Shown: one piece after another, positions 12,573 to 35,602 of the stretch
How the letters are laid out: each line of letters begins with the position of its first letter
How positions within the stretch are numbered: position 1 is the first letter of the stretch
DNA from: Bhargavaea sp. CC-171006
GTDB lineage: Bacteria; Bacillota; Bacilli; Bacillales_A; Planococcaceae
DNA length: 64,000 nt
Direction: 5' to 3'
NCBI RefSeq assembly: GCF_009761675.1
Contig: NZ_QUZH01000013.1
Location: 1 to 64,000 of the forward strand
The notes under the pieces: generated by a model
What the model was told of the DNA's origin: nothing
Databases searched by the model: none
What the model saw: the letters and a program-made list of their open reading frames with translations, nothing else
Position numbers and translations under genes: made by a program

Positions 12573-12588
12573 TGGCATGTAACTTGCA
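12573..12588 (+). promoter_or_regulatory. Sigma-54 (-24/-12) promoter of prolyl oligopeptidase
   Basis: TGGCATGTAACTTGCA has the invariant GG and GC exactly 12 bases apart and an excellent TGGCA-N6-TTGCA fit. It lies 35 bases before the start codon. Confidence 0.85.
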
Positions 12589-12622
12589 ACATCTTCGATG
12601 ATTGAAAAAGGGAGGAATTGAA

Positions 12623-14665
12623 ATGACCATACCAGTAGAAAAATCAAAAGTCATTGAGCTTTATCATGGACATGAAGTTCAAGACGCCTATCGCTGGCTA
12701 GAAAGTTCTGAGCATCCTGAAACGAAAACTTGGGCAGATTCTCAGAATCAAAACACCCGCTCTTATTTTGAAAAACTTCCCGTGCGGAATATGCTTCAAA
12801 AGAAACTTGCCGGACGTTGGAACACCGCCAAATTCTTTACACCTGAAAAAGTGAACGGCGAATATTTCTATCAGAAAAATAACGGTCTGCAGAACCAGCC
12901 GGTGCTCTACCGTTCACACAACCTCTCAGATTCAACGCCTGACAAGGTGATTGACCCGAACGAGATAAATCCGGAAGGCACGACTGCACTGACCGCACTT
13001 TCATTCAGCGGAAAAGGATCATGGCTCGCATATGCCCTGTCGGAAAACGGAAGCGACTGGCAGACCATCCGGATCCGTAACCTTGAAACCGGCAATGACC
13101 TCCCGGAAATCATCCGATGGGCCAAGTTTACAGACATCGCATGGACAGAGAATGAGACTGGCTTTTACTATAGCCGTTACCCCGAACCGGGCACTGTGCC
13201 GGATGAGGATGGAAGCAACTACAACCGGCTTTATTTCCACCGGCTGAATACCCCTCAATCTGAAGACCGCCTGATTCATGAACGGCCTGATGACAAGGAA
13301 CTGTCGTTCAGTGCTACCTTCACCGATGTTCATCGTCACCTTATTCTCCAATCATGGAAAGGCACTGAAAACAAGAGCCGCCTCTACTACCGGGAGGCAA
13401 CTTCCGATGGGGACTTCCTCCCCCTCGCCCCTGATGACGACGGCTACTACTCGTTCCTGGGGAATTCGGAAGGCCGGTTCATCCTCTACACCACTGCCGG
13501 TGCCCCAAATGGGAGGATCATCTCGGTTGATCCGGAACACCCGGAAAAAGAGCACTGGCAGGAAATCATTCCTGAGCAGGAAAGTGTTCTCTACTTCCCG
13601 AAACTCGCCGGGAACCACCTGATTGCGGCTTATATGGAACATGCCTGGCACCGTGTTGAACTATACAGGACGGATGGAACTCATGTCAGAAGACTCGGCT
13701 TGCCCGAAATGATCTCGGTATCGAACATTCAGGTATCCAAAAAAGAAGGTGAAGTGCTGATCGGCTATACGTCCTATCTCACTCCCACGACGATTGCCCG
13801 ATACACGATTGAATCGGATGAATTGGTCACCGTTCTGGTGCCGGAAGGCGGATTGGATCCTGACCTCTACACCACCCGGCAGGTTTTCTATCCTTCTACT
13901 GACGGCACACAGATTCCGATGTTCATCACCAGCCGGAAAGACCTGTCGCCCGACGGCTCCCATCCGGTCCTGCTCTATGGTTACGGTGGCTTCAATATCA
14001 GTATGACGCCGGCTTTCAACGCCTCGAACGCCATGTTCATCGAGGACGGCGGCATCTATGCCGTGGCGAATATCAGGGGCGGCGGGGAATACGGCGAAGA
14101 ATGGCACCAGGGCGGTACATTCGGCAACAAGCCACAAGTGTTTGACGACTTCATTTCGGCTGCGGAATGGCTGATTTCGGAACAGTGGACGAAGCCCGAA
14201 AAGATCGCCATCATGGGCGGAAGCAATGGCGGCCTGCTTGTGGCAGCCTGTCTGAACCGAAGACCCGATCTGTACGGCGCGGTCATCTGCCAGGTTCCGG
14301 TGACCGATATGCTCAGGTACCATAAGTTCACGGTCGGCCGATTCTGGACCTCGGAGTTCGGCCATCCAGAGGAAAATGAAGAAGATTTCCGGAATATCAT
14401 TGCATATTCCCCGCTGCACAACATTAAAGAACGTGAACATCCTCCCGTTCTGATCACAACCGCGGATACTGATGACCGTGTCGTCCCTCTTCACGCGATG
14501 AAGTACGCGGCTGCGATGCAGGAAGCCCAAAAGGGGGATGCCCCCATCCTGCTACGGATCGAGAAGGATGCAGGACATGGGCTCGGCAAACCGGTGTCAA
14601 AAATCATTGACGAACATGCGGACATCTATTCGTTCCTTTATACACACCTGGATATGGATGCCTGA
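12623..14665 (+). CDS. Prolyl oligopeptidase (S9A family)
   Basis: A 680-residue cytoplasmic serine peptidase that cuts short peptides after proline. The N-terminal HGHEVQDAYRWLE signature and beta-propeller region precede an alpha/beta-hydrolase domain. Catalytic residues visible are Ser534 in MGGSNGGLL, Asp617/618 in DTDDRVVP and His652 in DAGHG. ANIRGGGEYGEEWHQ is also typical. No signal peptide is seen. The start is the ATG after GGGAGGAATTGAA, not the in-frame TTG seven codons upstream. It is driven by a sigma-54 promoter and belongs with the peptide transporter and hydroxyproline genes downstream, supplying proline/hydroxyproline from imported peptides. Confidence 0.92.
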   Translation: MTIPVEKSKVIELYHGHEVQDAYRWLESSEHPETKTWADSQNQNTRSYFEKLPVRNMLQKKLAGRWNTAKFFTPEKVNGEYFYQKNNGLQNQPVLYRSHNLSDSTPDKVIDPNEINPEGTTALTALSFSGKGSWLAYALSENGSDWQTIRIRNLETGNDLPEIIRWAKFTDIAWTENETGFYYSRYPEPGTVPDEDGSNYNRLYFHRLNTPQSEDRLIHERPDDKELSFSATFTDVHRHLILQSWKGTENKSRLYYREATSDGDFLPLAPDDDGYYSFLGNSEGRFILYTTAGAPNGRIISVDPEHPEKEHWQEIIPEQESVLYFPKLAGNHLIAAYMEHAWHRVELYRTDGTHVRRLGLPEMISVSNIQVSKKEGEVLIGYTSYLTPTTIARYTIESDELVTVLVPEGGLDPDLYTTRQVFYPSTDGTQIPMFITSRKDLSPDGSHPVLLYGYGGFNISMTPAFNASNAMFIEDGGIYAVANIRGGGEYGEEWHQGGTFGNKPQVFDDFISAAEWLISEQWTKPEKIAIMGGSNGGLLVAACLNRRPDLYGAVICQVPVTDMLRYHKFTVGRFWTSEFGHPEENEEDFRNIIAYSPLHNIKEREHPPVLITTADTDDRVVPLHAMKYAAAMQEAQKGDAPILLRIEKDAGHGLGKPVSKIIDEHADIYSFLYTHLDMDA

Positions 14666-14670
14666 ACAGC

Positions 14671-14710
14671 AGAGGCCGCTCTCCCGATGGAGAACGGCCT
14701 CTTATCTTTT
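14671..14710 (+). terminator. Terminator after prolyl oligopeptidase
   Basis: AGAGGCCGCTCTCC (from 14671) pairs with GGAGAACGGCCTCT (to 14702) with one mismatch, then TTATCTTTT. It lies between convergent genes; the minus-strand side lacks a T-run. Confidence 0.75.
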
Positions 14711-15627
14711 CAGTCATCAATTTTAGGATCAAATGCATCACGGAGTCCGTCGCCGACAAAGTTGAACGCCAGGACCGTGATCAGGATCATGAACCCCGGG
14801 AATAGCGGATACCACCAGGCGCCCAGCATGATTTGAGGATTCTGTGCACTCTGCAGCATATTCCCCCAGCTCGGGGTTGGCGGCTGGATGCCGAGCCCGA
14901 GATAACTCAGACCGGCCTCAGCGAGAATGACCCCTCCCACTCCCAGCGTCGCCGATACGATAATCGGCCCCAGCGCATTTGGCAGGATATGAGAAAATAT
15001 AATGCGGGTGTTGCTAATTCCCAGTGTTCTCGCCGCCAGTACAAATTCTGACTTCCTGAGTGAGAGGAACTCACCCCGAACGAGGCGGGCGGTACCTGTC
15101 CATCCAAATACCGCAAAGATTGCAATCAGCGTAAAAATGCTTGGCTCAAAAATGGTCACGAGGGTAATAAGCAGGAACAGTGATGGAAACGAAATGATTG
15201 CATCCACAATCCGCATTAGCACAGCATCCAATATTCCCCCAAAGTACCCGGCAATCGCACCGATGACCGTACCAATGAATATCGAACCGGCAACCGAGGC
15301 AAAGCCAACCAGCAGGGAGATTCTGGCCCCGTACAGGAGACGGCTCAGCGTATCCCTGCCGAGATTATCCGCTCCCAACGGGTAGTCCTTCCCCGGCGGC
15401 GCCAACTTGTCGAGAAGAACCTGCTGGCTCGGATCTTTAGGGGCCAACATAGGTGCAAAGATGGCAGCCCCGACGATCATAATCAGCAGAACCGCCCCGA
15501 TTACCGCAAGTTTGTTTTTCATGAATTTCCTGAGCATCACTTTCCAAATGGCCTCATGCCCTATCAAGCTATGGTCTTCTGCTGAGACGGGTTTTTTCGG
15601 TATCCGCCTCTCATTGGTCAGTGTCAC
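14710..15627 (-). CDS. Dipeptide/oligopeptide ABC transporter permease (DppC/OppC type)
   Basis: A 305-residue membrane subunit. The N-terminal OppC_N-type segment ([23 protein letters not shown]) is followed by [29 protein letters not shown] and the EAA loop [20 protein letters not shown]. About six membrane helices fit the family. GTG start after GGAGAGGAGACC. It is the last gene of a five-gene transporter operon transcribed from a sigma-54 promoter near 20.47 kb. Confidence 0.9.
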
Positions 15628-15648: not shown

Positions 15649-16599
15649 TCAATACTCGATCCTCGGATCAAAGACTGCATATAGAATATCTGCCAGCAGA
15701 TTTCCGATCACGACCAGTGTCGCCGCAATGACCACAACCGCCATGATGACCGGATAATCGCGCTGGAAGGCCGCCTCCATGAAAAGCAATCCGATGCCCG
15801 GCCATGCAAAGACGCTCTCGATGATGACCGATCCGCCGATGAACGACGGCAGCATGAGCCCGAAAATCGTAATGATCGGGATCAGCGCGTTTCTTAGTCC
15901 GTGTTTGAAAATGACGGTCTTCTGCCTGAAGCCGTTCGCTTTTGCCGTCCGGATATAGTCCTGCCGCAGCACATCGAGCATGCTGGACCTCGAATAGCGC
16001 GTCAGACCCGCCATGTCGGCTGTTGCGAGAACAAAGGCAGGCAGAACCAGGTGATGAAGACGGTCCCATATACTGAACGGTTCACCGTATGTCGCGACAC
16101 CGCCAATCGGGAACCAGCCGAGATGAACAGACAGCACCATGATAAGGACCAATCCGATCCAGAAGTTCGGAGTGGCGACACCCAGGAAGGAGACGACGGT
16201 GATTGCATAATCCTGTAATGAATTTCTTTTTGTTGCAGACCAGACCCCAAGGGGAATGGAGATGATGAACGCAATGAATGTAGAAACGAGCATCAGCAAC
16301 AGCGTGTTCGGCAGCCTCGCGGTGATGAGTTCACTTACCGGCACGCCCTGGCGGATAAACGACTCACCAAAGTTTCCCTGAACCATATTCCCGAGCCATC
16401 GCCCATATTGGACGACGATGCTGTCATTGAGACCGTAAGATTCCTTGTAAGCCTCCAGGTTCTCCTGCTTGATCATCGGATCCATCATCAGAGCCGTGGG
16501 ATCGCCTGGAGCCATTTTCATGATTCCGAAGGAGATGACGCTGATGAGGAATAACAGAGGAATGGCCATCAGGCACCGACGGATGATATAAGTTGTCAT
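15649..16599 (-). CDS. Dipeptide/oligopeptide ABC transporter permease (DppB/OppB type)
   Basis: A 316-residue membrane subunit beginning MTTYIIRRCLMAIPLL. Landmarks are ISFGIMKMAPGDP, LIMVLSVHLGWFPIGG, and the EAA loop TAKANGFRQKTVIFKHGLRNALIPI, ending with the ADILYAVFDPRIEY tail common to DppB. The start was set at the ATG preceded by AAGGAAG at eight bases; an upstream reading would add nine unlikely residues. It pairs with the DppC-type subunit 21 bases downstream. Confidence 0.9.
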   Translation of the reverse strand: MTTYIIRRCLMAIPLLFLISVISFGIMKMAPGDPTALMMDPMIKQENLEAYKESYGLNDSIVVQYGRWLGNMVQGNFGESFIRQGVPVSELITARLPNTLLLMLVSTFIAFIISIPLGVWSATKRNSLQDYAITVVSFLGVATPNFWIGLVLIMVLSVHLGWFPIGGVATYGEPFSIWDRLHHLVLPAFVLATADMAGLTRYSRSSMLDVLRQDYIRTAKANGFRQKTVIFKHGLRNALIPIITIFGLMLPSFIGGSVIIESVFAWPGIGLLFMEAAFQRDYPVIMAVVVIAATLVVIGNLLADILYAVFDPRIEY

Positions 16600-16691
16600 A
16601 TCGATCACTTCCTTCCCGTCAAACATCTAAAGTAATAACACCGGGCATCACCCGATTGGGAGATGCCCGCCATGAGTCATTGGGAACAGTT

Positions 16692-18320
16692 TTATTGCTC
16701 AAAGTACCATTCATGGATCTTGTAATACGTATTGGCGGCATTGTACGATGGTCCGACCAGTTTAGGCGAGATCGCCAGATAACCTTCAGGATAGTACAGG
16801 AAGGTGTTTGGCTGATCCTCGGTGACAATGGCATCAGCCTCAGCAATGACAGCCTTTCTTTCTTCAAGATCCGCAATTTGTGTATTCTTGGAGAGAAGCT
16901 CATCGACTTCAGAATTCGAATAGCCGTTATAGTTCAGGCCGGCTTCAATTTCGGACGTGTGCCAGAACCATGTCGGATCCGGATCGCTGCCGATCGACCA
17001 ACCTGCCACAATCGCATCAAAGTTCCAGTTTGGAGGGCTTGTCTGCTCGACATAGGCACTCCACTCAAGCACTTCAATCGACGTCTTGATGCCGATTTCC
17101 GCCCACTGCTGCTGGGCAACTTCGGCAATCTGCTGGCGGATCTCGTTGGCGGACGTTGTTTTTAAAGCAAACTCAAACTTTTTGCCGTCCTTCTCAAGGA
17201 TGCCATCAGGACCCGGTTCCCAGCCGGCTTCTTTCAGGAGTTGCTTTGCTTTTTCAGGGTCATACTCGAACTTTGGAACATCCGGGTTAAACGCCCAGTT
17301 TGCAGGGCTTCCCGGTCCGTGTGCCACTGTACCGGCATCGCCGAGAATGGCCTGGATGATGGCTTCCCTATCAATGGCATGCGTCAATGCGTGGCGGACC
17401 TTCTTGTCCTGGAACAGTTCATTTCTGAGGTTGTATCCGATGTATTCGAATGCATTGGATGGACCGGATTCGAGCTTCACCATGCCCTTGGCCTCAAGAT
17501 CCTGTGCCATCCCCACATACTCCGGCGAAATACCGGCCATGCTGATCTCACCGACCTGTAGCTGTGCCATCGACGTATTCGTGTCAGGAACAATCTTATA
17601 AAGCAGTCCATCCAGCTTTGGCGCGCCAAGATGGTAGTCCTCGTGCGCCTCAAGTGCAATGTATTCTCCTTCTTTCCATTCCTTGAATTTGAACGGACCG
17701 GTTCCGATCGGCTCTTTCGTATTGAACGGATGCTTACCCAGTTCCGCTATTGGCACTTCACCAAGAATATGTTTCGGCAGAACTTCAAATTGCGCCGTGA
17801 TCGTGATAAATGGTGCGTATGGCTCCGATAGGACGAATTCCACCGTGTAGTCATCAATTTTATTGACCTCTTCGATGATCTCGAACGGCAGGCCCCTTGG
17901 TCCGACATAATCCGGGTCTTTCGGGATGGTGTAGGAGAAGACGACGTCGTCAGCCGTCATCGGTTCTCCGTCATGCCACTTCACGTTTTCCCGAAGATGG
18001 AACGTCCATCGCAGGCCGTCATCCGTGAAGTCCCAGCTTTCTGCAAGGTCACCTTCCGGGTTAAAGTCCTGGTCAACGGTAACGAGGCCGCTGAAGATAA
18101 ACCCTTCAATCGTCGAACTGGATGTATCAGTGGAGTAGTACGGATTGAACAAAGTCGGCGCGGCAGTCGTGGCCAGTACGAGATTGCCCCCCTCAGCTTC
18201 CGCACCTTCCTTTTCCGCCGCATTTGCATCAATATTTCCTGCTTCTTCAGGCTGTGAGCAGGCAGCAATCATCAAGACCATTGCCAGTGCCGCCACCTTC
18301 CATAGTGGTTTTCTGAACAT
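16692..18320 (-). CDS. Peptide ABC transporter substrate-binding lipoprotein (SBP family 5)
   Basis: A 542-residue extracytoplasmic peptide-binding protein. The signal peptide ends in a lipobox ending AAC-SQ (Cys about residue 21). Family 5 features are LRWTFHLRENVKWHDGEPMTADDVVFSY, the region around KEPIGTGPFKFKEW, VRHALTHAIDREAII and DPEKAKQLLKEAGW. Start ATG follows AAAGGGGG. It is the middle gene of the transporter operon. The genetic context of proline-specific peptidases suggests proline-rich or collagen-type peptides as cargo, which is an inference. Confidence 0.9.
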   Translation of the reverse strand: MFRKPLWKVAALAMVLMIAACSQPEEAGNIDANAAEKEGAEAEGGNLVLATTAAPTLFNPYYSTDTSSSTIEGFIFSGLVTVDQDFNPEGDLAESWDFTDDGLRWTFHLRENVKWHDGEPMTADDVVFSYTIPKDPDYVGPRGLPFEIIEEVNKIDDYTVEFVLSEPYAPFITITAQFEVLPKHILGEVPIAELGKHPFNTKEPIGTGPFKFKEWKEGEYIALEAHEDYHLGAPKLDGLLYKIVPDTNTSMAQLQVGEISMAGISPEYVGMAQDLEAKGMVKLESGPSNAFEYIGYNLRNELFQDKKVRHALTHAIDREAIIQAILGDAGTVAHGPGSPANWAFNPDVPKFEYDPEKAKQLLKEAGWEPGPDGILEKDGKKFEFALKTTSANEIRQQIAEVAQQQWAEIGIKTSIEVLEWSAYVEQTSPPNWNFDAIVAGWSIGSDPDPTWFWHTSEIEAGLNYNGYSNSEVDELLSKNTQIADLEERKAVIAEADAIVTEDQPNTFLYYPEGYLAISPKLVGPSYNAANTYYKIHEWYFEQ

Positions 18321-18418: not shown

Positions 18419-19450
18419 TCAATTGAACAAGTGGCAGGCGACATGGCGTCCGGGAACTACTTCACGGAACACAGGCGCTTCAGATCCGCACTGTGGCATC
18501 GCATATGGGCAGCGGGTATGAAAAACGCAACCCCTGGGAGGATTTGCAGGACTCGGCAGATCTCCCTTTAAGATGATGCGATCGCGCTTCACAACGCCTC
18601 CCTTCCGGATCACCGGAACCGCCGAAAGAAGGGACTGTGTATACGGATGAAGCGGTTCATCGTACAAACTTTTCTTATCTGACAGCTCCATGAGCTTCCC
18701 AAGATACATCACGCCGACTCTATCCGAAATATGGCGGACAACACTCAGGTCATGGGAGATAAAGATGTAGGTCAGGTTAAATTTCTCCTGCAGATCCTCC
18801 AGCAGGTTGACGATCTGGGCCTGAATGGACACATCCAGGGCGGAAACTGCTTCGTCCGCTATAATCAGCTCTGGATTCAGGATGAGGGCGCGGGCTATGC
18901 CGATCCTTTGGCGCTGGCCTCCCGAAAACTCATGCGGATAATTGTTGATGACCGTAGGGTGAAGTCCGACCGTCTGCAGAATCTCCGTGATATGGTCCAT
19001 TCGCTCTTCCCTGCTATTCAGAATCCCATGTACACGGAGAGGTTCCATAAGAATGCTGCCAAGTGACTTTCTCGGGTTAAGCGAAGCGTTCGGATCCTGG
19101 AATACCATCTGCATGTTTCGCCGCAGGACCGGGCCTAAATCCCGCTCTTTTAACTTGGTGACGTCGTTGCCGCCAAACAGGATCTTGCCGTCTGTCGGCT
19201 CATACAGGCGGATCAGGGCGCGTCCCAGCGTTGATTTTCCACACCCCGACTCTCCCACGATGCCAAGAGTTTCCCCTTTCTTCACTGTAAAACTGACGTC
19301 GTCGACCGCTTTGACAGATCCGGTCGTCCGCTGAAGAATGCCCGTCTTGATTGGAAAATGCATTTTCAGGTTCTGTACGTCAAGCAGGTTCTCATGGAAT
19401 CTCTCATTGGCTTTCTCTCTTTGGGAGAGCAGTATATTGGCCGTACTCAT
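18419..19450 (-). CDS. Oligopeptide ABC transporter ATP-binding protein (DppF/OppF type)
   Basis: A 343-residue ATPase with Walker A (GESGCGKST), signature (FSGGQRQRIGIARAL), Walker B (LIIADEAVSALD) and H-loop (FISHDLSVVRHI). The C-terminal oligopeptide/dipeptide extension carries the Cys-rich iron-sulfur-like motif PRGCVFHTRCPYAMPQC typical of OppF/DppF. It starts within the last codons of the upstream DppD-like gene (four-base overlap), and GGAGGTGGTCGA precedes ATG. Confidence 0.92.
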   Translation of the reverse strand: MSTANILLSQREKANERFHENLLDVQNLKMHFPIKTGILQRTTGSVKAVDDVSFTVKKGETLGIVGESGCGKSTLGRALIRLYEPTDGKILFGGNDVTKLKERDLGPVLRRNMQMVFQDPNASLNPRKSLGSILMEPLRVHGILNSREERMDHITEILQTVGLHPTVINNYPHEFSGGQRQRIGIARALILNPELIIADEAVSALDVSIQAQIVNLLEDLQEKFNLTYIFISHDLSVVRHISDRVGVMYLGKLMELSDKKSLYDEPLHPYTQSLLSAVPVIRKGGVVKRDRIILKGDLPSPANPPRGCVFHTRCPYAMPQCGSEAPVFREVVPGRHVACHLFN

Positions 19451-20427
19451 TCGACCACCTCCCCATCATAGAGAAAGCAGCGCACGCACCGGCCGTCTTC
19501 ACGAACGTACATCCCCGGAACTTCCTCCGTACATCTTGCAAATGCTTTGCTGCATCGCGGAGCAAACTTACATCCCGGCAACACTGTACCCGGAGCAGGC
19601 ACGTTTCCTTTGATGGATTGCAGACGGGTGATCTCGCCTTCAATGGCTGGAATGGAATGAATCAGGCCCTCTGTATACGGGTGGAGAGGCTCCTCAAACA
19701 GATCATCGACATCGCTGATTTCAACAATCTGTCCGGCGTACATGACAATCACCCGTTCCGCCAGCTCGGATACGACACCGAGGTCGTGTGTGATCAGCAG
19801 AATGGAGGTTGAGAACTTCTTGCTCAAATCCTTCATAAGCTCCAACACTTGTGCCTGTATCGTCACATCCAATGCAGTCGTCGGTTCATCCGCAATCAGC
19901 AGCTTCGGGTTGCATGACATCGCCATTGCGATCATGACACGCTGCCGCATACCGCCGGACAGCCGGTGGGGATAGTCTTTTAATGTCTTTAGAGGATCGG
20001 AAAACCCTACAATTCCGAGCATTTCCGCCGCCTTTTCCGTCGCTGTTTTCTTGTTTACTTTCAGGTGGTGCATGATGACGCCCGTCAGCTGATCGCCAAT
20101 CGTCAGCACCGGATTCAGCGAAGTCATCGGTTCCTGAAAAATCATGGCGACTTCCTTGCCGCGGATGTCATACATTTTCTTCTCGGGCATCTGAACCAGA
20201 TCGACACCGTTCAGTTTGATGGAACCATCCACGACCTTGCCGGCAGGAGCCGGCACTAATCCCATGATGGAAAGGGACGTCATGCTTTTACCGCAACCTG
20301 ATTCCCCAACAAGTGCCACGGTCTCTCCTTTGCCGATCTCAAAATCGATGCCGTCTACTGCACGGATGGTCTTTTTATTTTTTTGGAAATACGTTTTTAG
20401 ATTGGAAACCTCCAAAACAGCGTTCAT
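19447..20427 (-). CDS. Oligopeptide ABC transporter ATP-binding protein (DppD/OppD type)
   Basis: A 326-residue ATPase beginning MNAVLEVSNLKTYF. Walker A GESGCGKSM, signature LSGGMRQRVMIAMAM, Walker B LLIADEPTTALD and H-loop LITHDLGVVSEL are intact. The C-terminal motif LPGCKFAPRCSKAFARC is that of OppD/DppD. The start after GAGGGGG was chosen over an in-frame start 15 codons upstream. It is the first gene of the transporter operon; a sigma-54 promoter lies 40 bases upstream. Confidence 0.92.
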   Translation of the reverse strand: MNAVLEVSNLKTYFQKNKKTIRAVDGIDFEIGKGETVALVGESGCGKSMTSLSIMGLVPAPAGKVVDGSIKLNGVDLVQMPEKKMYDIRGKEVAMIFQEPMTSLNPVLTIGDQLTGVIMHHLKVNKKTATEKAAEMLGIVGFSDPLKTLKDYPHRLSGGMRQRVMIAMAMSCNPKLLIADEPTTALDVTIQAQVLELMKDLSKKFSTSILLITHDLGVVSELAERVIVMYAGQIVEISDVDDLFEEPLHPYTEGLIHSIPAIEGEITRLQSIKGNVPAPGTVLPGCKFAPRCSKAFARCTEEVPGMYVREDGRCVRCFLYDGEVVE

Positions 20428-20467: not shown

Positions 20468-20483
20468 TGCAATTTCTATGCCA
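20468..20483 (-). promoter_or_regulatory. Sigma-54 (-24/-12) promoter of the peptide transporter operon
   Basis: Read on the minus strand: TGGCATAGAAATTGCA, with GG and GC 12 bases apart. It lies 40 bases before the DppD-type start codon. Confidence 0.82.
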
Positions 20484-27471: not shown

Positions 27472-27504
27472 AGAACCCCTCCTTGTAGTGGGCGTAAGGG
27501 ACAA

Positions 27505-28416: not shown

Positions 28417-29469
28417 TTAAACACGCTCCTTTGCCGTCTCGCATGCCGGCTCATGATCCATCGGAGGGATCAGCAAATAGCCTTCTCGGAGAGGGTCGCG
28501 TTCGTTATAGAAGAACTTGTGCATCCCCATCACCCAGGCGGAGCCCGTCACTTCCGTTACGACGGCATCCAATGTCCCGGCGGTTGCCGTATCGATCACC
28601 CTTGCCTTGAACAGCGTTCCGACAATACTTTCGTGTACAAAGCGTTCCTTCTTCCGAATCTGGCCGTGTGAGTAAAGGGTTGCAAGTTTGGCGGAAGTTC
28701 CGGTTCCGCAGGGAGAACGGTCAATCCCGCCGGGCGGGACAACAACGGTATTTTTCACGTCAGCATCAGGATGGACAGGCTTCGTAAAAAATTCGATGTG
28801 TGTGAGCCCGCGGATAAACGGAAACTCAGGATGAACAATTTCTTCGCGTTCATTGATCGTATTCCGGATCAGGATCGCTTTGCTGATGATTTCCGCGGCA
28901 TGTTCCTCGGTCAGTTCAATTCCGAGCGTGTCTGCGTCGATGATGGCGTAAAAGTTCCCGCCATAGGCGATATCCGCCTGAACGTTTCCGATGCCTTCCA
29001 CATCAATCGAGATAGACCGCAGCAGGAACGCTGGGACATTCTCGAACGTCACTTCCTTCGCTTTCCCGTCCTCCACAAGGACCTGTACATCGATCAACCC
29101 GGCTGGGGTATCGATTTTGAGATTGGTGAACGGCTCCTGCACTTCGACCAGGCCCGCCTCGATCAGCGCCGTGCAAAAACCGATCGTGTCATGGCCGCAC
29201 ATCGGCAAATAGCCCCCGGTTTCGATATAGATCACGCCGACATCCGCCACCGGATCGCACGGGTCAGTAAGGAGTGCACCTGACATGACGCTGTGGCCGC
29301 GGGGCTCGTTCATCAGGTGTTTGCGGATCCAGTCATAATGCTCCTGCATATAGAGCATTTTCTCTCCCATCGTCTCCCCTTCCAATGGCGGAAGACCACT
29401 GATCAGCGTCCTTGTAGGGTTTCCCCCTGTATGTGTATCGATTGTCGTAAACAGCCGCTCGTACTTCAC
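28417..29469 (-). CDS. 4-Hydroxyproline 2-epimerase / proline racemase family
   Basis: A 350-residue cofactor-independent epimerase. Both catalytic cysteines are present, in GGYLPMCGHDTIGF and DRSPCGTGTSAKLA, as in proline racemase and hydroxyproline 2-epimerase (3-hydroxyproline dehydratases have Thr at the second site). FIRGLTHIEFFTKP and VTGSAWVMGMHKFFYNERDPLREGYLL complete the family pattern. GTG start overlaps the upstream oxidase gene by four bases and has GGAGGTGGGAATCAA before it. In this operon it should convert trans-4-hydroxy-L-proline to cis-4-hydroxy-D-proline. Confidence 0.9.
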   Translation of the reverse strand: MKYERLFTTIDTHTGGNPTRTLISGLPPLEGETMGEKMLYMQEHYDWIRKHLMNEPRGHSVMSGALLTDPCDPVADVGVIYIETGGYLPMCGHDTIGFCTALIEAGLVEVQEPFTNLKIDTPAGLIDVQVLVEDGKAKEVTFENVPAFLLRSISIDVEGIGNVQADIAYGGNFYAIIDADTLGIELTEEHAAEIISKAILIRNTINEREEIVHPEFPFIRGLTHIEFFTKPVHPDADVKNTVVVPPGGIDRSPCGTGTSAKLATLYSHGQIRKKERFVHESIVGTLFKARVIDTATAGTLDAVVTEVTGSAWVMGMHKFFYNERDPLREGYLLIPPMDHEPACETAKERV

Positions 29470-30659
29470 TTGATTCCCACCTCCACTTTCTTTTCATTGA
29501 ACCGGCTGATCCGCAGCGGCTCGGTCGGAATGCATGTCTCCTTGCCGCTCAGCATTTCTTCCATCACTTTACCGGTGACGGCGGCGAGGCTGATTCCGTC
29601 CCCCTCATGTCCTGCCGCGACATAGAAACCCGGTACCTCCTTTACTTCCGAAACGATTGGCAGATGATCTTCCGTCCACGGCCTGAGCCCCGCGTATGTG
29701 CGGATCACGGTCATATCCGCCATCTTCGGATAAAATCGGACTGCCCGCTTTGCAATATAGCGGGTCACTTCGTGGTTCACCCGTGTATCGTAGCCGGCAA
29801 ACTGCCGGCTGCTGCCGATCAGGAAATTCTGGCTTTCCGTCGGTTCAAACACGAGTGCAACCCCGTACTTTTCCGTCATCTCATCGACCACACGCTCTCC
29901 TCCGAATTTGGAGATCAGATAACCGAACTCCATCACTTTACGGAGACCGACCGGCTGCTGGCGTGATGCAACAATCAGTTGGCCTTTCCTTGGATAAATC
30001 GGCACATCCACATCGAGCATCTTGCCGATATACGGCGCCCATACACCTGCTGCGTTCACCACCTTGTTCGCTGTAAGTGTTGCCCCGTCCGTTTCAATCA
30101 TGAAATGGCCATCCGGACCCTTCGAGAGATTCTTCACCTCCGTATTCGTGTGGATTTTTGCCCCCTGCTTTTCTGCAGAATGGAACATCGAAAACGTCAG
30201 CATATACGGATTAACGGTCGAGTCCGTCTTGCACTCCAGCCCGCCGTATAGGTCATCAGCAAAAAACTTCGATTCATTTCTCAGATCTTCACGGTCCAAC
30301 ATCCGGAAGTCGAGACCGGCGTCGCATTGCTGCCGGACCCATTTTTCCGCAGCTTCCATCTCGGCATCGTTTTCACAAACGAGGATGCTTCCAGGATTGC
30401 GGTATTCGAATTTTACTTCTAATTCCTGATCAAGCTCATGGACCAGTTTCTGGCTGACCAGTGACATCTGGCTGTCGAAGCCCGGATCTTTGTCTATGGC
30501 CAAGATATTGCCATCGCAGCGTGAGGAAGTCCCGCTGGCGAGTGTGCTTTTTTCAAGGACAGTGATGTCGAGTCCGGCCTTTGACCCGTAGTAGGCTATG
30601 GCCGCTCCTATGATGCCGCCGCCGATGACGACGATATCACGATGCTCTCGGGATAACAT
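29466..30659 (-). CDS. FAD-dependent D-amino-acid oxidoreductase, probable cis-4-hydroxy-D-proline oxidase/dehydrogenase subunit
   Basis: A 397-residue DAO-family flavoprotein. The dinucleotide motif IVVIGGGIIGAAIAYYGSKAG is near residue 9; LEKSTLASGTSSRCDGNILA, VVNAAGVWAPYIGKM, IRTYAGLRPWTEDHLPIV and VAAGHEGDGISLAA follow in family order. It is the first gene of the hydroxyproline operon, 40 bases after a sigma-54 promoter, with AAAGGGGG before ATG. Partner [2Fe-2S] and pyridine-nucleotide-type subunits are encoded in a separate rightward operon at 32.5-34.3 kb, suggesting a multi-subunit dehydrogenase. Confidence 0.88.
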   Translation of the reverse strand: MLSREHRDIVVIGGGIIGAAIAYYGSKAGLDITVLEKSTLASGTSSRCDGNILAIDKDPGFDSQMSLVSQKLVHELDQELEVKFEYRNPGSILVCENDAEMEAAEKWVRQQCDAGLDFRMLDREDLRNESKFFADDLYGGLECKTDSTVNPYMLTFSMFHSAEKQGAKIHTNTEVKNLSKGPDGHFMIETDGATLTANKVVNAAGVWAPYIGKMLDVDVPIYPRKGQLIVASRQQPVGLRKVMEFGYLISKFGGERVVDEMTEKYGVALVFEPTESQNFLIGSSRQFAGYDTRVNHEVTRYIAKRAVRFYPKMADMTVIRTYAGLRPWTEDHLPIVSEVKEVPGFYVAAGHEGDGISLAAVTGKVMEEMLSGKETCIPTEPLRISRFNEKKVEVGIK

Positions 30660-30699: not shown

Positions 30700-30715
30700 T
30701 GCAAGAGGCATGCCA
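30700..30715 (-). promoter_or_regulatory. Sigma-54 (-24/-12) promoter of the hydroxyproline operon
   Basis: Minus strand: TGGCATGCCTCTTGCA, with GG/GC spacing of 12 and near-consensus boxes, 40 bases before the oxidase start codon. Confidence 0.88.
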
Positions 30716-30757: not shown

Positions 30758-30785
30758 TTGAATTTTTGTATTATTCATGTAAAAT
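30758..30785 (+). promoter_or_regulatory. Sigma-A promoter of the activator gene (probable)
   Basis: TTGAAT (30758-30763) and TAAAAT (30780-30785) are 16 bases apart. The -10 overlaps the palindrome at 30778-30795, which would allow autorepression by the bound regulator. Confidence 0.55.
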
Positions 30786-30795
30786 CCTTTTTACA
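30778..30795. promoter_or_regulatory. Palindrome TGTAAAA-N4-TTTTACA, candidate activator binding site
   Basis: Perfect 7-base arms around TCCT lie 63 bases upstream of the -24 element of the hydroxyproline operon and across the -10 of the activator gene. It resembles the 20-bp palindrome at 20573-20592 (ATGT-N-AAA...TTT-N-ACA layout). Confidence 0.6.
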
Positions 30796-30826: not shown

Positions 30827-32422
30827 ATGCCGCGAGAACTGCAGCTTAAAGATGTCATCATGCCCGGTTTGCCTGCCGTCGGAGCCGAAGGGCTACCCGC
30901 CTTCCCTGTAGACACCGTATTGGACAATATCCTCCCTCTGCTAAAGAGATCTGGAACGGTCATTGCTCTAAATGAAAGCGGCTCTCCTATCGGACATATC
31001 GACTTAAAGACGGCTCTGGACGAAATCGTGTTGGCCTATAAAAAGGAAAAGGCTTACCTTGATACCATCCTTCAGACCATAAACGATTCCTGCACAGTGA
31101 TTGATTCTGAGAAAAGAGTCGTCCATTGGACTGAAGGGGCCGAACGAATTTTCTCTGTCAAGGAAGAGGAGATTCTCGGGAATCCGATCACGGATTTTTT
31201 CGAAGCGGAACATCTTGAAATCCTAAACACGCTGAAGACCGGTTCTTCCGTCAGAAACCAGCAGCACCATGCCAGGGAAGACCTCGTTGTCCTCATCAAC
31301 TCCAATCCGGTCATGCTGGAAGACCGTGTGATTGGCGCGGTCGTTTCCGAAACGGACATCACCAGCCAAATCCGGCTGAACAACGAACTGCACAACACCT
31401 CGGAAAAACTGTTCCGGCTCGAGGAGCAATTGCGGAAAGCCTCCCCGACGGACAACCCGTTTTCCTATATAAAAGGCAACAGCCGGGCACTCAAGCGCAC
31501 ATTGGAACTGACCCGAAAAGCGGCCAGAACAGACGCGAACATCCTGATCAACGGGGAGAGCGGCGTCGGCAAAGAACTGTTTGCAAAAGCCGTCCATCAC
31601 TTGCGTGAGACAGACACCGCCCCCTTTATCGCGCTTAACTGCGGGGCCATCTCGGAAAGCCTGTTTGAGAGCGAAATCTTCGGATATGAAAAAGGCGCAT
31701 TCTCTGGCGCTGACGCAAAAGGCAAAAAAGGCAAAGTGGAGCTAGCTAGAGGCGGCACCCTATTCCTCGACGAAGTCGGTGAGATGCCTCTTGAGATGCA
31801 GGTGAAATTCCTGCGTGTGCTTCAGGAAAAGCGGTTTTTCCGAGTTGGCGGCACAAAAGAACTTGATGTCGACTTCCGGATCATCGCTGCGACGAACCGC
31901 GATCTCAAAGAACTTGTGGATGAAGGAAAGTTCCGTGAAGACCTTTATTACCGACTGAATGTTGTCAACATCAAGGTTCCTCCTCTCCGCGAAAGAATCG
32001 AAGACATCATCGAACTGACCCATTACTTCCTTTATGAAATTTCAATGAAGTATAACCGGCCGATCCACGGCATCTCCCAGGAAGTGATGCAGTCGCTCAT
32101 GAACCACAGCTGGCCAGGAAATGTCAGGGAGCTGCATAATGTCATCGAGCGGCTCGTCATCTTTTCCGACCACGGAGAAATCAAGATAGATGATCTTCCT
32201 CCTGAAATCGATCAGATTCATACTTCCGCCCAATCCCCTCCTGACTTGCTACAGGAAAAGGGAAGCGGAACACTGAATGAACAACTTGGCGAATATGAAA
32301 AAAACATTATCCTCAAAGAATTAAAAGCGGCCGGCGGCAATAAACAACAATGCGCCGCCAACCTTGGAATCACAAGGGCGACGCTCTACAACCGGATGAA
32401 TAAGCTCGGCATCGAACTCTGA
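30827..32422 (+). CDS. Sigma-54-dependent transcriptional activator (CBS-like/PAS/AAA+/Fis)
   Basis: A 531-residue enhancer-binding protein. Residues about 1-65 look like half a CBS pair (VIMPGLPAVGAEGLPAFP...GSPIGHIDL). About 75-190 is a PAS domain (TINDSCTVIDSEKRVVHWTEGAERIF). The AAA+ domain has Walker A (GESGVGKE, near residue 243), a sigma-54 contact loop reading GAFSGA rather than GAFTGA, Walker B (GGTLFLDEVGEM) and the Arg finger region FREDLYYRL. The C-terminus is a Fis-type helix-turn-helix (NKQQCAANLGITRATLYNRM). There is no receiver domain, so a small-molecule or redox signal is likely. It diverges from the hydroxyproline operon it presumably activates. Confidence 0.92.
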   Translation: MPRELQLKDVIMPGLPAVGAEGLPAFPVDTVLDNILPLLKRSGTVIALNESGSPIGHIDLKTALDEIVLAYKKEKAYLDTILQTINDSCTVIDSEKRVVHWTEGAERIFSVKEEEILGNPITDFFEAEHLEILNTLKTGSSVRNQQHHAREDLVVLINSNPVMLEDRVIGAVVSETDITSQIRLNNELHNTSEKLFRLEEQLRKASPTDNPFSYIKGNSRALKRTLELTRKAARTDANILINGESGVGKELFAKAVHHLRETDTAPFIALNCGAISESLFESEIFGYEKGAFSGADAKGKKGKVELARGGTLFLDEVGEMPLEMQVKFLRVLQEKRFFRVGGTKELDVDFRIIAATNRDLKELVDEGKFREDLYYRLNVVNIKVPPLRERIEDIIELTHYFLYEISMKYNRPIHGISQEVMQSLMNHSWPGNVRELHNVIERLVIFSDHGEIKIDDLPPEIDQIHTSAQSPPDLLQEKGSGTLNEQLGEYEKNIILKELKAAGGNKQQCAANLGITRATLYNRMNKLGIEL

Positions 32423-32445: not shown

Positions 32446-32461
32446 TGGCAAGGAACTTGCA
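32446..32461 (+). promoter_or_regulatory. Sigma-54 (-24/-12) promoter of the iron-sulfur/flavoprotein operon
   Basis: TGGCAAGGAACTTGCA, with GG and GC 12 bases apart, lies 43 bases before the first start codon and just after the activator gene. Confidence 0.87.
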
Positions 32462-32503: not shown

Positions 32504-32776
32504 ATGACTGATCGAGACATGATTGTATGCAGATGCGAAGAAGTGACATATGGGGAACTGGTGGACACTGCCGGACAGTTTGCCTGTAACTCCCGTGAGC
32601 TAAAGCTCCGTACAAGAGCCGGCATGGGATATTGCGGAGGCAGGACCTGCCGCTCTTTAGTGGACGCCATCGCGCTGGCAGCCACCGAACGTGACGTGAC
32701 GCAGATTACGCTGAAATACCAGCCGCCTGTCCGGCCGGTTCATTTCGGAGATTTGGGGGCGATTCCAAATGACTGA
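32504..32776 (+). CDS. BFD-like [2Fe-2S]-binding protein, hydroxyproline dehydrogenase-associated
   Basis: A 90-residue small iron-sulfur protein. Four cysteines follow the BFD pattern: CRC near residue 6-8 and CGGRTC mid-protein (C-x-C ... C-x4-C). In D-hydroxyproline and related dehydrogenases such domains occur as a separate or fused subunit passing electrons. ATG at 32504 follows AGAGGTGATTCGG. It is the first gene of a three-gene overlapping operon (ATGACTGA overlap with the next gene). Confidence 0.85.
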   Translation: MTDRDMIVCRCEEVTYGELVDTAGQFACNSRELKLRTRAGMGYCGGRTCRSLVDAIALAATERDVTQITLKYQPPVRPVHFGDLGAIPND

Positions 32777-33107
32777 GCGAATCCTTGATCATCCTGTACT
32801 CGGCGTACTGGAACCGGATCAAACGGTCACATTTACTTTCAACGGCATGAAGTACGAAGGCCGTTGCGGCGAACCGATTGCGGCTGCCCTCCTCGCTGCG
32901 GGTATCCGGACTCTCAGGCATCATGAAGAGAGCGGAACACCCAGGGGAATTTACTGCAACATTGGTCACTGTTTTGAATGCCGTGTGGAAGTTGACGGCC
33001 ATCAGGGAGTCCGTGCCTGCCTCACCCCTGTCCGGGAAGGCATGGTGATTAACGGGGGTGGCGCACTGCCCTCTCCGGTACGTGATTGGAGGAAGGATAA
33101 TGCGTGA
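32769..33107 (+). CDS. [2Fe-2S] ferredoxin-like subunit (HcnA/SoxA-type)
   Basis: A 112-residue ferredoxin-like subunit of the kind found in hydrogen-cyanide synthase, opine and D-hydroxyproline dehydrogenases. It has FNGMKYEGRCGEPIAAALLAAGIRTLRHH and the cluster motif YCNIGHCFECRVEVDGHQGVRACLT. The gene overlaps its upstream neighbour by eight bases and its downstream neighbour by eight, so the three products are probably made in equal amounts for one complex. Confidence 0.88.
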   Translation: MTERILDHPVLGVLEPDQTVTFTFNGMKYEGRCGEPIAAALLAAGIRTLRHHEESGTPRGIYCNIGHCFECRVEVDGHQGVRACLTPVREGMVINGGGALPSPVRDWRKDNA

Positions 33108-34323
33108 CCTGATTATTATCGGAAGTGGCCCTGCGGGGCTGACTGCCGCCATCACCGCAGCAGAGCACGGACTGGACATTCTCGTCATCGACGAATATCT
33201 GAAGCCCGGCGGCAGACTCCTTGGGCAACTTTACGAAGAACCGGGAGGCAACTGGTGGAATGGTATTGAGGAAAGCAGAAAGCTTGCCGGACGCGCCAGT
33301 TCACTCGGCCTGGATATCCGTCTTGGAATTTCGGTCCACAACATCGAACAGATTGACGGTTCCTGGCTGGTCCACGCGGATTGTGAAACTTTTGAAACCA
33401 AGTCTCTTCTCTTGGCAACCGGGGCGGCAGAAGCACCGGTTGCCATCCCAGGCTGGACCCTCCCCGGTGTCATGTCGGTCGGTGCCGCACAGGTGATGAC
33501 CAATGTGCATCGGGTAAAACCTGGCCAGAGAGGAGTCATTATCGGTGTGAACGTTCTTTCTTCAGCCATCGCCATGGAGCTGAAAATCGCGGATGTCGAA
33601 GTCGCCGCTATCGCATTACCAAAGACCAATCAGGTTAATGGTAAGGCCGCCAACCCATCAGAAGTGATGAACGCTCTTCTTCATGTGTCCCATATGGCAC
33701 CGTCTCCTCTTGTGAAAATGGGCAGTAAACTAATGACCAACGATTTCATGAAGAGGATGGGCATCACTCTCTATCCGAAAAATGGCGTCCGCATGTGGGA
33801 CATCCCGGTTATGTTACGCAAGGCGGTCATTCGGATCGAGGGAACCGATCAGGTGGAAGGTGTCACCCTTGCTACAGTGACCGCTGAAGGAAAGATTATA
33901 CCGGGAACGGAGGAAGTGATCGGCTGTGACTTTGTCTGCATAGCGGGGGGACTCTACCCGCTTGCTGAGCTTGCTGCACTGACAGGTTGTCCGTTTTATC
34001 ATATTGATGAACTTGGCGGCTTTGTCCCGCTTCATTCGGAAGACATGCGCACACCGCTAGACGGTCTCTACGTTGCCGGTAACATTACCGGCATCGAGGG
34101 TGCAAAAGTTGCCATGAGCCAGGGAAAAACGGCAGCCCTGGCGATCGCAAAAGATCATGGGCAAGACATTGCTGATACATCCCTTTCCGAAGCCGTCCGG
34201 CAGATTTCCTCAACACGGTCGGATGCGCATATTCAATTCCACTCGGAAGTCGAGGCTGGGCGGAGAAAGCTTCAGGAATACTGGGAGCAACATGCTGCGG
34301 GAATGCGGAATGTTATGGTTTAA
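33100..34323 (+). CDS. FAD/NAD(P)-dependent oxidoreductase subunit (HcnB/SoxA-like)
   Basis: A 407-residue flavoprotein with GSGPAGLTAAITAAEHG at the N-terminus, LLLATGAAEAPVAIPGWTLPGVMS mid-protein, and a C-terminal GLYVAGNITGIEGAKVAMSQGKTAA FAD-binding stretch. This is the pattern of the alpha subunit of heteromeric D-hydroxyproline/opine dehydrogenases. ATG at 33100 follows GGAGGAAGGATA and overlaps the previous stop codon; a longer frame is not supported. With the two iron-sulfur subunits it probably completes the oxidase encoded in the divergent operon. Confidence 0.88.
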   Translation: MRDLIIIGSGPAGLTAAITAAEHGLDILVIDEYLKPGGRLLGQLYEEPGGNWWNGIEESRKLAGRASSLGLDIRLGISVHNIEQIDGSWLVHADCETFETKSLLLATGAAEAPVAIPGWTLPGVMSVGAAQVMTNVHRVKPGQRGVIIGVNVLSSAIAMELKIADVEVAAIALPKTNQVNGKAANPSEVMNALLHVSHMAPSPLVKMGSKLMTNDFMKRMGITLYPKNGVRMWDIPVMLRKAVIRIEGTDQVEGVTLATVTAEGKIIPGTEEVIGCDFVCIAGGLYPLAELAALTGCPFYHIDELGGFVPLHSEDMRTPLDGLYVAGNITGIEGAKVAMSQGKTAALAIAKDHGQDIADTSLSEAVRQISSTRSDAHIQFHSEVEAGRRKLQEYWEQHAAGMRNVMV

Positions 34324-34370: not shown

Positions 34371-35462
34371 TCAGGCTTCCACCACTTCAATGACAACTAA
34401 TTCCTTCGTCGATGGAGTGAGCGTTTTGCAACCATCCTCCGTGACCAGCAGCACGTCCTCCACCCGCGCTCCCCCTACGCCTGGAAGGTAGATACCCGGC
34501 TCGATCGTGATCACCATGCCCGGTTCCAGAGTCTTCTCTGTATCCACTGAGAAGAGTGGTTTTTCATGGACTTCAAGGCCGATTCCGTGTCCGGTGCCCG
34601 TTCCGGAACGATCATTATAACCGCTCTCGATCAATGCTTTTCTCATCAGGGCATCCACATCACTGTCTTTCATTCCCGGCCGAATGTTGTGGAAGCAATC
34701 CATGAAGGAACGGTAGACAACTTCCTGTATCTCACGCATCTGTGCATCAGGTTCTCCGACAGCGACCGTACGGGAGATATCTGACCAGTAGCCGTCATAG
34801 TTAGCACCAAAGTCGATGGTAATCATCTCACCCTTTTCGATGACCTTATCGCTTGCCCGGCCGTGGGGAAGCGATGAGCGGACACCCGACGCCACAATCG
34901 GATAAAACCCGACGGCATGACCACCGCGGCTCTCGATGAATCGCACCAGTTCATCCGCGACTTCCCGCTCTTTCTGCCCAGGCCGGATATAGCCCAGGAT
35001 ATGGGTGTACGCGTCATCCGTAATTTTTGAGGCCATCCGCATCTTCTCGAGCTCATCCGGTCGCTTGATCATCCGGATGTTTTCAACAAAATCAAAAGTC
35101 GGAACAAGTTTTGCTGTTACTCTGCTCTTTAGCCTTTCGTAATTCCCATAGCTCAGATGCTGCTGTTCAAAGCCAACACTTTTTAGTCCATGTTTGGTAA
35201 TCTCACGCGCAGCTTCATCAAAAATCTTCTGCTTGTGCCCGGTATGTTCAGCATGAAGAACAACCGGCAAGCCGGTCTGCTGGGCAGCCTGCTCATAGTA
35301 CCGGTAATCAACAATCATCTTCGCCGTCTCCTGTGTGATCAGGACGAGTCCATGGCTTCCCGTGAATCCCGTCACATACCGCCGGTTCCATTCCCCATTG
35401 ATGACCAGGCCATCCAGCCCCTGTTGCTTCAGTTCCTCACGGATCATTTGGATCGTTTTCAT
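34371..35462 (-). CDS. Xaa-Pro dipeptidase/aminopeptidase (M24 family), second copy
   Basis: A 363-residue metallopeptidase. Metal ligands are present: Asp in TIDFGANYDGY, Asp in WSDISRTV, His in GTGHGIGLEVHE, Glu in TIEPGIYLPG and Glu in ARVEDVLLV. ATG at 35462 has AGGGGAG nine bases upstream; an earlier in-frame start is less likely. It is transcribed leftward from a candidate sigma-54 promoter 125 bases upstream through a leader that can fold. It duplicates the function of the peptidase at 20.7-21.8 kb, perhaps with a different peptide preference. Confidence 0.9.
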   Translation of the reverse strand: MKTIQMIREELKQQGLDGLVINGEWNRRYVTGFTGSHGLVLITQETAKMIVDYRYYEQAAQQTGLPVVLHAEHTGHKQKIFDEAAREITKHGLKSVGFEQQHLSYGNYERLKSRVTAKLVPTFDFVENIRMIKRPDELEKMRMASKITDDAYTHILGYIRPGQKEREVADELVRFIESRGGHAVGFYPIVASGVRSSLPHGRASDKVIEKGEMITIDFGANYDGYWSDISRTVAVGEPDAQMREIQEVVYRSFMDCFHNIRPGMKDSDVDALMRKALIESGYNDRSGTGTGHGIGLEVHEKPLFSVDTEKTLEPGMVITIEPGIYLPGVGGARVEDVLLVTEDGCKTLTPSTKELVVIEVVEA

Positions 35463-35515
35463 TCTTCTTCTCTCCCCTTTAGTAGATGTACGCACCGCTC
35501 AGGCCGGTTCCGGCA

Positions 35516-35573
35516 ATGAGAAGGGCCTAATTATGCTACGCAAAAAGACTCCCTCTTTCGCTCCCCTTCTCAT
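35516..35573 (-). promoter_or_regulatory. Inverted repeat at the 5' end of the peptidase leader
   Basis: ATGAGAAGGG (35516-35525) is the exact complement of CCCTTCTCAT (35564-35573), with 38 bases between. Both arms fall within the first 60 bases of the transcript predicted from the sigma-54 promoter. It could form a 5' stem; no known riboswitch class was recognised. Confidence 0.4.
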
Positions 35574-35586
35574 TCCCATTTCTACT

Positions 35587-35602
35587 TGCATGTTTCATGC
35601 CA
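35587..35602 (-). promoter_or_regulatory. Sigma-54 (-24/-12) promoter of the second Xaa-Pro peptidase
   Basis: Minus strand: TGGCATGAAACATGCA, with GG/GC spacing of 12; the -12 box has ATGC instead of TTGC. It lies 125 bases upstream of the start codon. Confidence 0.65.

Follow-up and report, generated by a model that had tools for sequence, protein, structure and literature searches.

The DNA considered here is a stretch of 64,000 nucleotides (nt) from Bhargavaea sp. CC-171006 (Planococcaceae; contig NZ_QUZH01000013.1, positions 1 to 64,000), hereafter the window. Within it, the 23 kb between positions 12,573 and 35,602 hold a gene for the sigma factor sigma-54, a sigma-54 activator, genes for the import and cleavage of peptides and a set of putative catabolic genes, many of them behind sigma-54 promoter-like sites. 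This locus, called the island below where its counterparts in other genomes are concerned, had been described in an original prediction as a self-contained sigma-54 regulon for the use of proline-rich peptides and hydroxyproline. Its features are the following.

12573..12588, + strand: sigma-54 site TGGCATGTAACTTGCA before the prolyl oligopeptidase (5/6 genomes)
12623..14665, + strand: prolyl oligopeptidase, S9 family (Pfam Peptidase_S9_N and Peptidase_S9); ATG at 12623 behind a ribosome-binding site, read from the sequence; the open reading frame (ORF) call has TTG at 12602
14710..15627, - strand: OppC-like permease of a peptide ATP-binding cassette (ABC) transporter (NCBIfam Opp4C, 383.9 bits, cut-off 350)
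15649..16626, - strand: OppB-like peptide ABC permease (NCBIfam scan)
16692..18320, - strand: OppA-like peptide-binding protein (NCBIfam scan)
18419..19450, - strand: OppF/DppF-like ATP-binding protein (NCBIfam scan)
19447..20427, - strand: OppD-like ATP-binding protein; ATG at 20427 from the sequence, TTG at 20472 in the ORF call
20468..20483, - strand: sigma-54 site TGGCATAGAAATTGCA before the peptide ABC operon (7/10 genomes)
20574..20591, unstranded: palindrome TGTCAAAATGTTTTGACA (TGT-N12-ACA), a candidate site for the activator, in the region that separates the divergent promoters of the ABC operon and of peptidase 1 (motif comparison)
20622..20637, + strand: sigma-54 site AGGAACAAAACTTGCA before Xaa-Pro peptidase 1 (8/8 genomes)
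20667..21773, + strand: M24 Xaa-Pro peptidase 1 (Pfam Peptidase_M24 and Creatinase_N); likely start ATG at 20667
21908..23191, + strand: sigma-54 gene (rpoN/sigL), 427 residues, H-type lineage; activator-interacting (AID), core-binding and DNA-binding domains, TIGR02395, tree
23589..25088, - strand: aldehyde dehydrogenase, candidate 2-oxoglutarate-semialdehyde dehydrogenase (assigned at family level only)
25105..26013, - strand: DapA-family protein, candidate pyrroline-4-hydroxy-2-carboxylate deaminase (role from neighbourhood)
26035..27504, - strand: NhaC-family transporter, putative imino acid importer (TIGR00931, Na+/H+ antiporter NhaC, 502.6 bits, over cut-off)
27505..28416, - strand: proline-racemase-like protein without both catalytic cysteine motifs (from the sequence)
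28417..29469, - strand: proline racemase/hydroxyproline 2-epimerase with Cys91 and Cys254 (from the sequence)
29466..30659, - strand: flavin adenine dinucleotide (FAD) subunit, DAO family, of the candidate D-hydroxyproline dehydrogenase (profile scans)
30700..30715, - strand: sigma-54 site TGGCATGCCTCTTGCA before the flavoprotein operon (28/28 genomes)
30778..30795, unstranded: second candidate site for the activator (TGT-N12-ACA); it begins 80 nt upstream of the sigma-54 site of the flavoprotein operon (motif comparison)
30827..32422, + strand: SoxR/PrdR-like sigma-54 activator with PAS, AAA+ (GAFSGA loop) and Fis-type helix-turn-helix domains
32446..32461, + strand: sigma-54 site TGGCAAGGAACTTGCA before the Fe-S/flavoprotein operon (26/28 genomes)
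32504..32776, + strand: BFD-like [2Fe-2S] protein; ATG at 32504, GTG at 32495 in the ORF call
32769..33107, + strand: [2Fe-2S] Fer2_4 protein (domain scan)
33058..34323, + strand: FAD/NAD-type flavoprotein, SoxA-like subunit (profile scans)
34371..35462, - strand: M24 Xaa-Pro peptidase 2; likely start ATG at 35462
35587..35602, - strand: sigma-54-like site TGGCATGAAACATGCA upstream of peptidase 2, weakly supported (counterpart in 3/7 genomes)

The six sites with exact GG-N10-GC spacing that had been announced all lie where they had been placed. The spacing alone is little proof, as the loose motif occurs near the chance level in the window (37 matches against 27.9 +/- 5.4 expected). Over the 3.27 Mb of the genome, the strict consensus TGGCAYRNNNNTTGCA has six mismatch-free occurrences, three of them inside the locus; sigma-54-like sites are also present elsewhere. 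Conservation was evaluated in the upstream regions of the orthologues from 28 genomes or named records, with one threshold throughout: GG and GC exact and 10/12 consensus positions, in the stretch from 400 nt before the start to 60 nt past it. A site precedes the flavoprotein gene in all 28 and the BFD Fe-S gene in 26 (the misses are G180 and G139), at a near-constant distance from the start except for the Fe-S site of G093, which is 189 nt away. Sites also precede peptidase 1 (8/8), the prolyl oligopeptidase (5/6) and OppD (7/10), the last being missed in G006, G180 and G139, whose best OppD matches are only 45-50% identical. As controls, the sigma-54 gene and the activator gene have a site in 1/20 and 1/28 genomes respectively, each more than 300 nt away; neither gene thus looks sigma-54-dependent, and the conservation of the other sites next to controls that lack them argues that they are real. 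The site of peptidase 2 has a counterpart in only three of seven genomes (G000, which is the window genome, G007 and G190), the first two being the only ones within the genus. Five of the six proposed promoters are therefore well supported by conservation and the one at 35587 is weak. It could be argued that the sites are chance matches and that the units are transcribed from sigma-A promoters, which would suit both the frequency of the loose motif and the poorly conserved peptidase 2 site; nevertheless, the 28/28 and 26/28 conservation at nearly equal distances from the start, with control genes devoid of sites, makes this extremely unlikely. The locus is kept, with some differences, in six of the eight genomes of the genus that were compared (G000, G001, G002, G004, G006 and G007). 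In G006 (L122), other genes replace the peptide ABC operon at its usual place, while peptidase 1 and its sigma-54 site are retained.

The sigma-54 gene and the activator do lie inside the same 23 kb, as predicted, and their domains confirm both. The former is intact, with PF00309, PF04963 and PF04552 (the AID, core-binding and DNA-binding domains) all over cut-off and 400.6 bits against TIGR02395 (cut-off 277.35). The consensus of the RpoN box is ARRTVAKYRE and the box reads SRRTISKYRE here; one extra residue before it distinguishes the 29 H-type rows listed from the 19 listed rows of other lineages. The activator matches PF00158 and PF02954, that is, it has the sigma-54 interaction domain and a Fis-type helix-turn-helix, and the GAFSGA loop is found in 12/12 of the orthologous activators listed. 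The pattern drawn from the two 18-nt candidate sites at 20574 and 30778 matches only these two places of the genome at one mismatch or fewer, and in 15 of the 28 genomes a TGT-N12-ACA occurs within the 180 nt that precede the flavoprotein-operon site, compared with 5.6% of 2000 random stretches. The published site of PrdR and other clostridial activators is likewise made up of TGT and ACA, with a spacer of 10-12 bp (PMC6615313). There is no TGT-N12-ACA site upstream of the Fe-S operon of the window. In the sox locus of Bacillus thuringiensis (Bt), a single SoxR site, located upstream of soxB, acts on soxC over a distance of 1.7 kb or more (PMC4941409), so it is plausible that both operons share one enhancer here too. 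Another palindrome, TATTTCCYRGGAAATA, is found at 12520-12535 and 35669-35684, near two of the six sigma-54 sites, and the reversed pattern has no genome match at one mismatch or fewer. It was rejected as the activator site: at the same stringency it occurs at eight places of the genome, some between seemingly convergent ORFs, and it is not retained upstream of the prolyl oligopeptidase in G007 or G006. Upstream of the same gene, a CTGT-N6-ACAG inverted repeat (12445-12458) is kept in G000, G007, G001 and G006; it is possibly the operator of a second regulator.

Peptide import and proline-specific peptidases are part of the locus as had been claimed, since Opp-type ABC genes and both S9 and M24 peptidases could be identified. 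One operon set gathers a two-cysteine racemase/epimerase, a flavin dehydrogenase, a DapA-like protein and an aldehyde dehydrogenase, and the known 4-hydroxyproline route uses the families of epimerase, D-amino acid oxidase (DAAO), dihydrodipicolinate synthase (DHDPS) and aldehyde dehydrogenase (PMC4113996). The full candidate enzyme set for the predicted route from trans-4-hydroxyproline to 2-oxoglutarate is thus present, whereas hydroxyproline as the substrate is suggested by the enzyme families and their neighbourhood. The Fe-S/flavoprotein operon probably has no separate function and encodes what appear to be the other subunits of the same dehydrogenase. The cysteine-less racemase-like protein (27505-28416) is kept beside the active-type epimerase in several genera, and soxF holds the equal place in the published Bt order.

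It is likely, then, that we are dealing with an enlarged sigma-54 regulon of the SoxR/PrdR type that serves the use of cyclic imino acids, the best candidate being trans-4-hydroxyproline derived from collagen-like peptides. What is observed is the set of genes, the conservation of the sigma-54 sites, the partial conservation of a candidate enhancer and the synteny; from these we infer the substrate, the signal, the binding of the activator and the assembly of the subunits. Several points weigh against this reading. The epimerase falls below the NCBIfam equivalog cut-offs (355.5/376 for 4-hydroxyproline epimerase, 397.7/556 for proline racemase) and the activator below that of PrdR (NF041552, 524.4 bits for a cut-off of 795). 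The DapA-like protein passes the cut-off of true DapA (245.7 vs 206.15), so that its catabolic role rests on the neighbourhood. An exact TGT-N12-ACA is absent from the 180 nt searched in 13/28 flavoprotein operons, and two of the 15 carriers have it only about 160 nt away. Moreover, orthology with the Bt sox locus rests on published gene order and names, and that locus has been linked to sarcosine, hydroxyproline having no occurrence in the main text of PMC4941409. One may accordingly ask whether the core is rather a sarcosine oxidase regulon as in Bt, hydroxyproline not being the physiological substrate. The subunits of the locus do resemble heterotetrameric sarcosine oxidase, a protein over the cut-off of the lysine-pathway DapA would be no surprise under that explanation, and Bt soxR and soxB mutants fail on sarcosine (doubling time >60 h) but do not fail on proline (PMC4941409). 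Yet the two-cysteine racemase/epimerase, the DapA-family protein and the aldehyde dehydrogenase of the operon have no obvious role in the use of sarcosine, the Bt authors leave soxE-I, which include the corresponding three genes, unexplained, and the neighbours in the window locus are prolyl peptidases. In addition, Bt HD73 does not grow on glycine (>60 h, in the same Table 1 of PMC4941409 as sarcosine), a poor fit with sarcosine as a nitrogen source via glycine. The sarcosine explanation seems unlikely for these reasons, and it appears more likely that the Bt sox locus would itself be a hydroxyproline locus with sarcosine as a side substrate.

If the locus is a hydroxyproline regulon, the activator (30827-32422) would have a promoter that lacks a sigma-54 site, would sense its signal through the PAS region, and would bind the TGT-N12-ACA enhancers at 20574-20591 and 30778-30795 to open the sigma-54 promoters. 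These would drive peptide import, the prolyl peptidases, the epimerase and the multi-subunit flavin/Fe-S dehydrogenase, and also the DapA-like deaminase and the aldehyde dehydrogenase, the route ending in 2-oxoglutarate.

The self-containment of the regulon is a different matter. One intact sigma-54 gene was found in the window genome, together with seven activator matches above 100 bits, that of the locus included; the assembly is a draft of 32 contigs with 99.81% completeness, which leaves room for a further sigma-54 gene in a gap and tells against the account given here. Three of the other activators have adjoining sigma-54-like sites. The site at C14:3571 precedes a second proline racemase, a predicted proline dehydrogenase (read from the sequence) and a BrnQ carrier, that at C22:23798 a hydantoinase-type operon and that at C22:46465 an acyl-CoA operon. 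The activator of the C14 locus (L052, C14:2106-7016) is a related one (about 46% identical). At C22:44695-44865 (L054) there is a C-terminal sigma-54 remnant of some 57 residues, 81% identical to the sole sigma-54 gene of the congener G003, and the intact activator beside this remnant is 92.6% identical to the one adjoining the G003 gene. A remnant next to a kept activator is most simply explained by loss of that copy in the window lineage, after which the sigma-54 of the island would have come to serve the remaining activator as well. The island sigma-54 has thus probably taken over the C22 regulon after the decay of the neighbouring copy and, as the only intact one found in the genome, it apparently serves other regulons as well. 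Neither the self-contained character of the regulon nor the claim that the locus holds the whole target set can be maintained: the single gene must also serve other activators, sigma-54-like sites lie beside several of these, and the peptidase 2 target is weak. Full dedication of the sigma-54 gene to the locus would agree with its position there, with the share of perfect consensus sites that the locus holds and with the restriction to it of the 18-nt enhancer pattern at one mismatch or fewer, a pattern drawn from these very sites. It is nonetheless very unlikely, given one intact gene for seven strong activator matches and an activator so close to that of G003, kept with a sigma-54-like site after the adjoining sigma-54 copy had decayed.

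The association of the sigma-54 gene with this regulon was studied in a sample of 200 genomes of the family. A sigma-54 match (E<=1e-10) was obtained in 109 of them and none was found at this threshold in the remaining 91; the activator (E<=1e-140) is present in 30. In 23 of these 30, from four genera, a sigma-54 gene lies at most 20 kb from the activator: 6/6 in g1 (the window genus), 5/9 in g3, 2/2 in g5 and 10/10 in g14, compared with 0/2 in g4 and 0/1 in g8. H-type sigma-54 (E<=4e-118) is found in 29/30 genomes with the activator and in 24/170 without it; because the genomes are related, the Fisher value of this co-occurrence is not a probability. In seven of the 23 linked genomes there is another sigma-54 gene elsewhere, and the linked copy is the H-type one every time. 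In the phylogeny of 67 sigma-54 proteins, the 39 H-type rows group together with strong support (100/100). A lineage some of whose members are linked to cggR-gapA and a third lineage (C2) fall outside this group, although other placements are unsure owing to several long branches. On this tree, 7 changes account for the island label, compared with 16.8 in shuffles. The core gene order is the same across the family and in Fictibacillus, Siminovitchia and Lysinibacillus. The sequences thus place the sigma-54 gene of the locus in a distinct lineage that is often co-located with this regulon in the family. G193 has a third, split sigma-54 copy (L234, C1:23779-25036) besides two full ones. The idea that the H-type is private to the family was rejected, as copies of 49% identity are present in two genomes of another family (among 398 genomes).

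The last base of the sites, at position -11, was tallied on sites scored without that position, counting only those with an ORF start at most 250 nt downstream. The five genomes with both an island and a C2-type sigma-54 (G117, G138, G162, G184 and G193) have TTGCA at 16/16 sites of the island loci and TTGCT at 9/9 of the C2 loci; with the island loci of G070 and L. sphaericus and the C2 loci of G111 and G104, these become 22/22 for A and 11/11 for T. The five promoters have A in 65/66 cases over the family genomes, the cggR-linked sigma-54 loci L139 and L243 have one site each, ending in A, and four records of other families give A six times, T once and G once. Two observations count against a pair of distinct systems: the window genome, whose only intact sigma-54 found is of the H-type, carries a TTGCT site next to an activator, and the peptidase-1 promoter of G006 ends in T. 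Genome-wide consensus counts give A 30 (reversed control 8) and T 12 (control 9) in eight g1 genomes. In eight g14 genomes taken as C2-only, where this status was assigned to G218, G132, G197 and others from genus and identity (33-36%), outside the tree, they give A 61 and T 40, against a simple split. Genomes without sigma-54 also show several matches, so that these counts (49 genomes) are not decisive.

A promoter-like filter was then applied to 75 sites from six g14 genomes out of the 49. It retained 1/23 A and 4/9 T in the C2-only genomes (three), the sole A sequence being also present in the sigma-54-less G062; 4/15 A, all in the island, and 3/14 T, all outside it, in the two-sigma genomes (two); and 3/10 A and 0/4 T in the H-only genome (one). 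This agrees with the A/T split but is small, and the filter dropped conservation-supported island Fe-S sites, so it loses true sites. Recognition-helix residues were considered as the cause of the preference and are not claimed, the alignment having no clean difference. In Cereibacter, the -11 base helps to separate RpoN1 from RpoN2 (PMC11999139).

Several scenarios may explain these patterns. One is that some genomes of the family possess two parallel sigma-54s, the island H-type reading TTGCA and the C2-type reading TTGCT, the island being a portable orthogonal circuit able to replace the decaying sigma-54 of its host, a role to which the remnant in the window genome would point. Since the SigL of Bt uses both endings and the unfiltered counts do not split, two specialised systems are suggestive only, and we put this scenario forward tentatively, as rather doubtful. 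Alternatively, the linkage may be incidental, with the H-type as a general sigma-54 placed there by chance and the -11 pattern as inherited promoter sequence. The seven activator-bearing genomes without linkage, the 24 H-type genomes without the activator, the changes of the island label on the tree and the excess of A in the genomes taken as C2-only all agree with this, as does the fact that SigL-dependent promoters of Bt end in TTGCA or TTGCT, those of sox ending in A (PMC4428206, Table 2). Conversely, linkage in 23/30 genomes over four genera and co-occurrence in 29/30 (phylogenetically non-independent figures), together with the H-type identity of the linked copy in all seven two-sigma-54 genomes, speak for a more than fortuitous association. 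Incidental linkage has, in our view, about an even chance of being right.

The idea of a regulon unknown to science had to be rejected, as its core is published (PMC4428206, PMC4941409). What is unusual here is that the sigma-54 gene itself is often inside this regulon in the family. The locus had also been called unusual: with the same core published in Bt and linkage common in the family, what is left of this is the sigma-54 gene within the locus. Among the matches listed of a literature search that left most subscription papers uncovered, no published account was found of sigma-54 linkage to this locus, nor of two sigma-54s in this family. A global sigma factor within one catabolic island provides a natural case of sigma-54 gain, loss and replacement. 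The family also offers a possible Gram-positive test of two sigma-54s kept separate via the -11 base, and hydroxyproline may be the true substrate of the sox locus that was published as one for "sarcosine".

Among known systems, the closest in organization is the sox locus of Bt HD73 (soxB/E/F/G/H/I and soxR/C/D/A), whose dependence on sigma-54 and SoxR was established by microarray, 5' rapid amplification of cDNA ends, lacZ fusions, footprinting and mutants (PMC4941409, PMC4428206). According to the published order, a flavoprotein, a proline racemase, a protein of unknown function, a DapA-like protein and an aldehyde dehydrogenase face an activator, two Fe-S proteins and a flavoprotein in both cases, with a carrier gene in the first operon. 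The window locus likewise has two divergent operons with the activator between them, and the sigma-54 promoters reported before both enzyme sets (soxB, soxC) and not before the activator (soxR) are mirrored by sites in 28/28, 26/28 and 1/28 of the respective counterparts. In contrast to Bt, the window locus also has the sigma-54 gene, the peptide ABC transporter and proline-specific peptidases with sigma-54 sites; its carrier is of the NhaC family and precedes the DapA and aldehyde dehydrogenase genes; its candidate enhancer is TGT-N12-ACA, whereas Bt SoxR has an 11-bp inverted repeat with a 7-bp gap; and the published Bt substrate is sarcosine. The clostridial PrdR regulon (PMC6615313) is similar in that PrdR is the best NCBIfam match of the activator and in its upstream activating sequence of spaced TGT and ACA. 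Nevertheless, the window activator is below the PrdR cut-off, the window pathway is an oxidative catabolism while that of PrdR is proline reductase, and none of the 20 window proteins scanned with NCBIfam was recognised as a prd product. Cereibacter (Rhodobacter) sphaeroides, with RpoN1, RpoN2 and RpoN3 (PMC11999139), has several sigma-54 genes per genome, a -11 discriminator and regulon-specific activators, as may be the case here; however, specialisation is only putative in the present Gram-positive family and the window genome has one intact copy found. Finally, the gene neighbourhoods described for 4-hydroxyproline (epimerase, DAAO, DHDPS and aldehyde dehydrogenase; PMC4113996) draw on the same enzyme families, while the window dehydrogenase looks multi-subunit with two Fe-S proteins and its genes would be under sigma-54 control. 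A 2025 survey places proline racemase among the genes predicted to be predominantly controlled by sigma-54 in Bacilli (PMC12316311).

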